This document shows, in pieces, positions 56,045 through 58,054 of a stretch of 63,262 nucleotides of DNA. The stretch's first letter is position 1. Each line of letters opens with the position of its first letter. The stretch is from Bacillota bacterium. Lineage in GTDB: Bacteria; Bacillota; Limnochordia; DTU080. The stretch spans positions 1 to 63,262 of the forward strand of contig DULU01000065.1 in assembly GCA_012840225.1 (NCBI GenBank). The letters run 5' to 3'. A program made the position numbers and the translations under genes. The notes below the pieces were generated by a model. The model saw only the letters and a list, made by a program, of their open reading frames with translations, searched no databases and had not been told where the DNA came from.

Positions 56045-58054
56045 ATGGCTGCCATGGATATCCTCAATCAGGCTGATGAAGATGGAGAACGAGAACCAAA
56101 AGCCAGGCGGGCGACCTTCCCGCCCGGCAGCGTGATTCTGAGTCAAGGGCAAACCACACCGGCTTTTCACACCATTGTGTCTGGCTATGTCGATATTTAT
56201 GTCGAAGGCGAGCCGCGGGTCAAGGTAGCCACCTTGGGGCCGGGGGAGTTTTTCGGGGAGATGGCCTGCCTGACAGGGGATCCCATCAGCGCTACCGTGC
56301 AGGCGGTGGACGAGGTGGTCACCACGGTCATGGAGCGCAGCGAACTGCTGCAGTTGATGGACCAAAGCCCCCAGCTGCGCCATAAGATCATCGATGCCTT
56401 GGTCAGAAGGGTAAGGCAGACCAACATCCGGGTTCAGAAGGAAAACCTGCGGGCCGGGGAGATGGCGCAGGCCATCAGCAAGGAAGGCGAGTCCCGCTAT
56501 GGGGAGCTGGTCGGCCGCAGCGAAGTCATAACGAGGCTGCGGACGGAAATAAAGGCGTTGGCGCGGGAGTCGGTGCCGGTGGTGGTGACCGGCGAGCCCG
56601 GCACAGGGAAAAACCATGTCGCCGCCCGCCTGCACTTTGATGGCCCGCGGCGGGAGCATCCCTTGCTATATTGCCACGGACTGGATTTTTCCATGGAATC
56701 GTTCCGTCGCCAGGCCAAAGCTGCCGAAGGCGGGACACTGGTGATCGACAAAGCTCACTGCCTGGAGCCGGCCGGGCATATGCCGGGTACAACCAAGATG
56801 GAGATATTCCGGGAAATGCTGGCCGCCTGCCCCGAAACCCGCCTGGTCATCATCACTGAAGAATTTCCCTCTCTTGAAGGGGTATATCACCTGCGGGTGC
56901 CTCCTTTGAGAGAGCGGCGGGAGGATATCCCTTACCTGGCGCAAGCCTTCTTGCTGCAATATGCCGGGCCGGCTGTTTCGGCTGCTTCGGCTTCGGCTAC
57001 ATCGGCTGCTTCAGCAGCTGCGGAGGCTGCGGGGGTTGCGGGGGTTGCGGGAGCTGCGGGGGTTGCGGCAGCTGAGGAGGCTACGGAAGCTATGGGAGCT
57101 GGTGGTCCTTCTCTCTCCCCTGAGGCTATCAGGCGCCTGGTTTTATATCCCTTCCTGGAAGGCAATGTTAAGGAGTTGCAGCATGTCATGCAGCAAGCCG
57201 TCGTGCTGGCTGCCGGGGGCATCATCAAACCTGAGCATCTGCGCCTGGGAGGTTACAGGAAACCGGGCGGGCGTCCCCGGATCGGTCTGGCTTTGGGCGG
57301 GGGAGCGGTGCGGGGGACGGCACACGTCGGCGTGCTGAAGGTGTTTGAGGAAGAAGGCATTCCGGTGGATATGATCGCCGGCACCAGCGCCGGCTCTCTG
57401 GTCGGGTGCATGTATGCCGCCGGCATGAGCATTGCCGAGATGGAGGAAGTGCTGCCCAAGGTGCGCTGGAGCACTTTGGTCAAGCCCATCTGGCCCAAGG
57501 TAGCTTTTGTGGATAATGAGCGGCTGGGGCGCTGGCTGGAGGAAATGACTGGGTGCCGGACCTTTGAGGAACTGCGCATTCCTTTCGCCTGTGTGGCGGC
57601 TGATGCTGTTTCAGGCGAGGCGGTAATTATGCGGAGCGGTCCGTTGGGCTCGGCGATCATGGCCTCTACCGCCATACCCGGGATGATGCTCCCGGTAGAG
57701 CGAGAGGGCCGCATCCTGGTGGACGGGGGAGTGGTGCACAAAGTCCCGGTGATCACGGTGCGCAGCATGGGTGCCGACCTGACCATCGCCGTGGACGTTG
57801 GCGCTCCTTCCTATGTCTGCGGTCCGCCCCGCCATCTGGTGGATTCCATCTTGCATGCCTATGACATCATGAGCCAGCGTCTGGTCGATGATGAGCTGGA
57901 ATGGGCGGATATCGTCCTCAACCCCAGGGCACCCGTCAGCGCTTATGACTTCAAAAATGCTCCGGCCTTTTTCAAGCGGGGAGAAGAAGAGGCCCGCCGA
58001 TTTGTTCCTATGATCAGGCGGGCCATCGCAGAGACTGCCGAACGGAGAATATGA
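56045..58054 (+). CDS. cNMP-binding-like, degenerate NtrC AAA+ and patatin phospholipase fusion
   Basis: A 669-residue three-domain protein. Residues 20-130 form a CRP-like cyclic-nucleotide fold (VSGYVDIYVEGEPRVKVATL, GPGEFFGEMACLTGDPISAT); the phosphate-binding Arg of true cNMP sites is Ile here. Residues 160-400 look like an NtrC-type AAA+ domain: Walker A VTGEPGTGKNHVA (near 182), Walker B TLVIDKAHCL with Lys for Glu (near 231), VPPLRERREDIPYLAQAFLL and EGNVKELQHVMQQAVVLAAG. The GAFTGA loop is absent, so sigma-54 activation is unlikely. A 45-residue Ala/Gly-rich linker lies inside it. Residues 408-600 are a patatin lipase with GGGAVRGTAHVGVL, GTSAGS (Ser near 447) and VDGGVVHKVPV. GAGGTG is five bases before the ATG at 56045. 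Confidence 0.88.
   Translation: MAAMDILNQADEDGEREPKARRATFPPGSVILSQGQTTPAFHTIVSGYVDIYVEGEPRVKVATLGPGEFFGEMACLTGDPISATVQAVDEVVTTVMERSELLQLMDQSPQLRHKIIDALVRRVRQTNIRVQKENLRAGEMAQAISKEGESRYGELVGRSEVITRLRTEIKALARESVPVVVTGEPGTGKNHVAARLHFDGPRREHPLLYCHGLDFSMESFRRQAKAAEGGTLVIDKAHCLEPAGHMPGTTKMEIFREMLAACPETRLVIITEEFPSLEGVYHLRVPPLRERREDIPYLAQAFLLQYAGPAVSAASASATSAASAAAEAAGVAGVAGAAGVAAAEEATEAMGAGGPSLSPEAIRRLVLYPFLEGNVKELQHVMQQAVVLAAGGIIKPEHLRLGGYRKPGGRPRIGLALGGGAVRGTAHVGVLKVFEEEGIPVDMIAGTSAGSLVGCMYAAGMSIAEMEEVLPKVRWSTLVKPIWPKVAFVDNERLGRWLEEMTGCRTFEELRIPFACVAADAVSGEAVIMRSGPLGSAIMASTAIPGMMLPVEREGRILVDGGVVHKVPVITVRSMGADLTIAVDVGAPSYVCGPPRHLVDSILHAYDIMSQRLVDDELEWADIVLNPRAPVSAYDFKNAPAFFKRGEEEARRFVPMIRRAIAETAERRI

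Follow-up and report, generated by a model that had tools for sequence, protein, structure and literature searches.

A Patatin Domain Fused to a Cyclic-Nucleotide-Binding Fold and a Degenerate NtrC-Type AAA+ Domain in a Bacterium of the Phylum Bacillota

Gene and Domain Architecture

In the window, that is, the whole stretch of 63,262 nucleotides analysed here (contig DULU01000065.1), an uninterrupted open reading frame of 669 aa plus a stop codon was found on the forward strand at positions 56045–58054. A Shine–Dalgarno-like sequence, GAGGTGG, is located directly 5' of the ATG at 56045. The encoded protein consists of a cyclic-nucleotide-binding (cNMP) fold, a long helix, a pseudo-bEBP AAA+ core, an AAA lid and a patatin domain; its orthologues are the proteins L051 and L052. 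The initial annotation had described a three-part fusion of a cNMP-like sensor, an NtrC-type AAA+ domain and a patatin lipase, which is borne out by the orthologues and by the Pfam matches, all of which exceed the gathering cut-offs.

The N-terminal part (aa 20–110, 56102–56374) is a CRP/PKA-type cyclic-nucleotide-binding fold, recognized by motif comparison and by the profile cNMP_binding (PF00027; aa 24–107, 6e-19, 68.2 bits against a cut-off of 27.5). It is followed by a helical linker (aa 105–150, 56357–56494) at the position of the dimerisation C-helix of CRP; aa 109–151 are predicted in the full-length model as one long helix, with moderate to low confidence there. The AAA+ core (aa 153–306, 56501–56962), identified by Pfam, motif alignment, modelling and Foldseek, matches Sigma54_activ_2 (PF14532; aa 156–236, 1.4e-9) and Sigma54_activat (PF00158; aa 155–209, 9.5e-8), and the lid (aa 353–406, 57101–57262), also seen in the motif alignment, matches AAA_lid_14 (PF25601; aa 354–400, 3.3e-13). 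The patatin domain (aa 409–669, 57269–58051), assigned as RssA/PlpD-like by Pfam, NCBIfam, PDB and Foldseek comparisons, matches PF01734 over aa 415–570 (1.5e-31, 110.5 bits against a cut-off of 27.7). It follows the lid directly, at the position occupied by the helix-turn-helix (HTH) domain in NtrC, and no helix-turn-helix family was detected in the fusion protein by the Pfam scan.

The core and the lid are separated by an Ala/Gly-rich insert of 46 aa (56963–57100), which is built of imperfect 9/18-bp tandem repeats, is predicted with low confidence in the models and is missing from both aligned orthologues; it is probably a repeat expansion. The mean pLDDT of the full-length model is 66.2 and its pTM is 0.52. 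Values in the cNMP part are mostly below 50, and this part of the model is unreliable because the underlying alignment contained no cNMP homologues, so that the assignment of the cNMP fold rests on the profile PF00027.

Two explanations of the architecture were ruled out: an assembly chimera or frameshift fusion, by the full-length orthologues in two other genomes, and chance profile matches, by scores above curated cut-offs, by the fold and by orthologues with the same domains.

Patatin Domain

The patatin domain carries the oxyanion stretch GGGAVRG (aa 418–424), the nucleophile motif GTSAGS (aa 446–451) with Ser448, and the motif DGG (aa 560–562) with Asp560, the same elements that had first been named in the annotation of this gene. 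The orthologues retain the catalytic Ser and Asp, with the motifs reading GSS(I/V)GS and DGA, and score 107.1 and 104.9 bits against the Patatin profile PF01734. The best NCBIfam family is RssA (NF007623), at 122.3 bits, below the equivalog cut-off of 272 bits, and the best PDB match is PlpD (5fqu, 1e-40). Foldseek with the patatin part of the full-length model retrieved PlpD structures (5fya/5fqu, TMt 0.82), as well as CapV and CapE. From these motifs we infer that the fusion is probably an active serine–aspartate (lyso)phospholipase or esterase of the RssA/PlpD/NTE kind.

AAA+ Region

The middle region is a bEBP-type AAA+ domain by both profile search and structure model. Its model has a mean pLDDT of 77.9 and a pTM of 0.73, and the best Foldseek matches are FlrC, NtrC1, PspF and FleQ; since bEBP homologues made up the alignment of the model, the fold supports this assignment and is not independent of it.

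The motifs were compared with those of 29 NtrC-type sequences, most of which contain the full set and a few of which are themselves degenerate. Walker A is retained in the three known fusions as GExGxGK (GEPGTGKN in the window protein, aa 183–190), including its Lys, as is the motif PPLRERRED (aa 286–294 in the window protein). The GAFTGA L1 loop and the Walker B Glu, whose loss had already been recorded for the window protein (GGTLVIDK, with Lys236 in place of Glu), are missing from all three members, as are the Asn of sensor I, the arginine fingers (FRxDLxxRL) and the Arg of sensor II, the last replaced in GNVKEL in the window protein and in GNVEEL in the orthologues. What several of these elements do in bEBPs has been described (PMC7175178).

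No match to the DNA-binding domain of sigma-54 (PF04552) was found in the window genome, which is 96.6% complete, or in the five nearest genomes searched. The fusion gene is the only match to the AAA half in the window genome; other matches to PF00158 there are weak and partial, the best at 3.5e-14, where true members in the genome G153 reach about 1e-70. With neither sigma-54 nor another NtrC-type match found, the role of a sigma-54 activator is very unlikely in the window organism. Across the 73 genomes of its class, PF04552 exceeded the cut-off in a single genome, G019.

Further degenerate bEBP AAA+ relatives without GAFTGA, in which parts of the catalytic set are lost, were observed in L038, L046, L028 and L027; L038 is an open frame of 1097 aa from candidate division CSSED10-310.

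Sensor Domain

In the phosphate-binding cassette, FFGEMACLTGDPISATV, Ile81 occupies the place of the Arg of CRP-type domains, as had been read from the window sequence; Val is found there in both orthologues. The phosphate-binding Arg is also missing in the listed relatives with a C-terminal Fe–S domain, described below, and is kept in the cNMP-only relatives L032, L033, L034 and L057. Gly71 and the ribose-binding Glu72 are retained.

These residues bear on the reading that the protein is a classical cyclic-nucleotide-gated lipase, in which the patatin is switched by cAMP, cGMP, cCMP or cUMP bound to the cNMP fold, as in Pycsar effectors and as proposed for NTE. Such gating would agree with the good cNMP_binding score, with the PADLOC match between the cNMP part and PycTIR effectors (E 3.8e-14), with the retained Gly71–Glu72 and with the one class III cyclase of the window genome. 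However, that cyclase, a single PF00211 match, is encoded on another contig, and the two orthologue genomes, which are 93% and 81% complete, yielded no class III cyclase. Given this negative result and the loss of the Arg in all members, a canonical cAMP switch is unlikely, and the gating by cyclic nucleotides considered at the outset is regarded here as an improbable explanation.

In three genomes of one order (G002:C139, G005:C4 and G004:C7), genes for a CRP-like protein and a class III cyclase lie about 1–2 kb apart, possibly as a conserved cAMP switch pair.

Distribution, Phylogeny and Selection

The survey for the fusion covered 398 genomes of the phylum, among which two, from one genus of another class, encode orthologues of 620 aa with the same architecture, so that three members are known. 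They share 41–42% identity with the window protein by BLAST and 44–45% over the multiple alignment. The class of the orthologues is represented in the sample by three genomes, the third of which encodes stand-alone patatins only. The combination of the cNMP fold and the AAA half was found in no other genome of the window's class (n = 73), where the few weak matches are all partial. No plasmid record covered 80% of the query; viral contigs gave no match with the full alignment, and the patatin alignment alone retrieved two patatins from them. The scan of contigs was made with short exact peptides and is insensitive.

A single clade, separate from the stand-alone paralogues of the same genomes, unites the patatin parts of the three fusions (99/98), and the AAA parts likewise form one clade (100/99). 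The fusion therefore moved as one piece, by inheritance or by transfer. The orthologue genomes contain sigma-54 and many bEBPs, which would fit an origin of the fusion in such a lineage with subsequent transfer.

Comparison of the two close orthologues gave a dN/dS of 0.05–0.12 in every region, with 0.087 in the AAA core and 0.048 in the lid. All regions of the fusion are under purifying selection. A decaying fusion, in which the AAA+ region is drifting debris and the patatin domain alone matters, might be suspected from the many lost catalytic residues and from the low-complexity Ala/Gly insert of the window copy. This is contradicted by dN/dS values of about 0.05–0.09 in the AAA core and lid, similar to those of the patatin part, and by the conservation of PPLRERRED and of the Lys and glycines of Walker A across members of different classes; we consider decay very unlikely.

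Gene Neighbourhood

The neighbours scanned with Pfam in the window are metabolic genes, encoding amidohydrolases, a solute-binding protein, an FAD-dependent oxidoreductase and a beta-helix protein, and no lipid gene adjoins the fusion there. In both orthologue genomes, genes for a CDP-alcohol phosphatidyltransferase and an MFS-like protein are located near the fusion (L104, 5036–8391; L105, 5287–9392), which lies in opposite orientations in the two loci. The neighbours in L105 were identified by Pfam, with MFS below the cut-off, and those in L104 by sequence resemblance. CDP-alcohol phosphatidyltransferases are a family of phospholipid synthesis, and the orthologue neighbourhood gives a hint of phospholipid metabolism.

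An anti-phage function, with a patatin toxin that the N-terminal half keeps inactive until infection is signalled, is brought to mind by the use of patatins as CBASS effectors, by the Foldseek matches to CapV and CapE and by the resemblance of the cNMP part to PycTIR. In the window and in L105, however, no nucleotide cyclase or defence gene was found by Pfam among the neighbours scanned, and by sequence the domain is closest to patatins of the RssA/PlpD type, which leaves a defence role with very little probability.

Parallel Family with an Fe–S Domain

Searches with the cNMP and AAA half also retrieved 17 proteins with a degenerate AAA+ domain, most of them of about 800 aa. Fer4_5 was found on the C-terminal side in all five of those scanned with Pfam. 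Proteins combining the cNMP fold, a pseudo-bEBP AAA+ domain and a NapH-like Fe–S membrane domain were observed in L070–L078, L082–L085 and L100–L103 (also L053–L056, L058 and L059). They come from the same phylum as the window and are mostly 790–850 aa long, the Walker A Lys is often replaced by Arg, and some genomes contain two copies. In the gene of this family from genome G150 (L085, 1519–3315; G150:C33:56772–57623), an in-frame TAG is present.

In the AAA tree, the Fe–S family forms a clade of its own (98–100% bootstrap). A single origin of the lipase and Fe–S groups is neither supported nor rejected by this tree (AU p 0.222).

Comparison with Known Systems and Proposed Function

The catalytic domain, dyad and oxyanion stretch of the fusion are those of RssA/PlpD-type patatins of the NTE family, but in the fusion this domain is C-terminal to the cNMP and AAA+ half, whereas RssA consists of this domain alone and PlpD brings its own translocator for secretion. 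Eukaryotic NTE/PNPLA6-7 proteins resemble the fusion in carrying cNMP folds N-terminal to the patatin, and differ from it in having three cNMP domains and a transmembrane segment without an AAA+ part. Direct regulation of NTE by cyclic nucleotides has not been demonstrated (PMC6995513). Pycsar PycTIR and CBASS CapV and CapE show a similar sensor–effector logic, with a cNMP fold in PycTIR and a patatin fold in CapV and CapE; they differ from the fusion in the residues of the sensor, in the pairing of effectors and in gene context. The Fe–S family has the same order of sensor, dead AAA+ domain and effector and the same kinds of residue losses, with a Fer4_5/NapH-like membrane domain as the effector instead.

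Compared with NtrC-type bEBPs, the lipase takes the place of the HTH domain. An AAA+ core and lid without the L1 loop, as in the fusion, are also found in the GAFTGA-less bEBPs, namely Caulobacter and Rhodobacter NtrC and VpsR, which act at sigma-70 promoters (PMC10274813). These proteins regulate transcription, while the fusion additionally lacks the Walker B Glu, sensor I, the arginine fingers, sensor II and the HTH. That the fusion is a transcription factor with a lipase tail, its AAA+ domain still regulating transcription, perhaps at sigma-70 promoters as NtrC and VpsR do (PMC10274813), is highly improbable given that Pfam detects no helix-turn-helix family and that the patatin directly follows the lid at the NtrC HTH position.

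The best explanation, which we hold to be rather probable, is an active RssA/NTE-type lipase tethered to a non-motor regulatory half made of a sensor and a pseudo-bEBP domain. The CRP-like domain and its helix would probably dimerise and respond to a signal that is not a canonical cyclic nucleotide. In the AAA+ domain of the NtrC type, the P-loop and lid are kept and cooperative ATP hydrolysis and sigma-54 contact would have been lost; the domain most likely serves as a non-motor spacer, either binding a nucleotide or structural only, which may set the oligomeric state or transmit conformational changes of the sensor to the lipase. With the P-loop retained, ATP may still be bound and slowly hydrolysed.

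The proposal that a transcription-factor ATPase was reused as a scaffold for a phospholipase has gained from the additional losses, from their sharing with the orthologues, from purifying selection and from the window genome, in which neither sigma-54 nor another NtrC-type match was found; the AAA+ domain has very probably taken on the task of holding or controlling the enzyme. A broader formulation, in which a bEBP AAA+ domain turned pseudo-ATPase assembles and switches a phospholipase as one case of a general design combining a sensor, a dead AAA+ domain and an exchangeable effector, and would thus represent a new class of lipase regulators, is put forward tentatively.

The arrangement had been thought undescribed. 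This stands insofar as no paper was found that mentions patatin, sigma-54 and cyclic-nucleotide binding together, nor one on the combination of cNMP, AAA+ and Fe–S domains; subscription journals were thinly covered, which makes both negative results weak evidence. The arrangement is not isolated, since it has orthologues and a parallel Fe–S family.

The fusion is a clear case of a repurposed transcription motor, a domain kept under selection where its sigma-54 partner was not found, and suggests that AAA+ domains of bEBPs can serve as general parts for assembly or signal relay. The wider second group, in which the effector is a different one, points to a modular combination, and the fusion, as a small protein amenable to experiment, lends itself to studies of the control of bacterial patatins.
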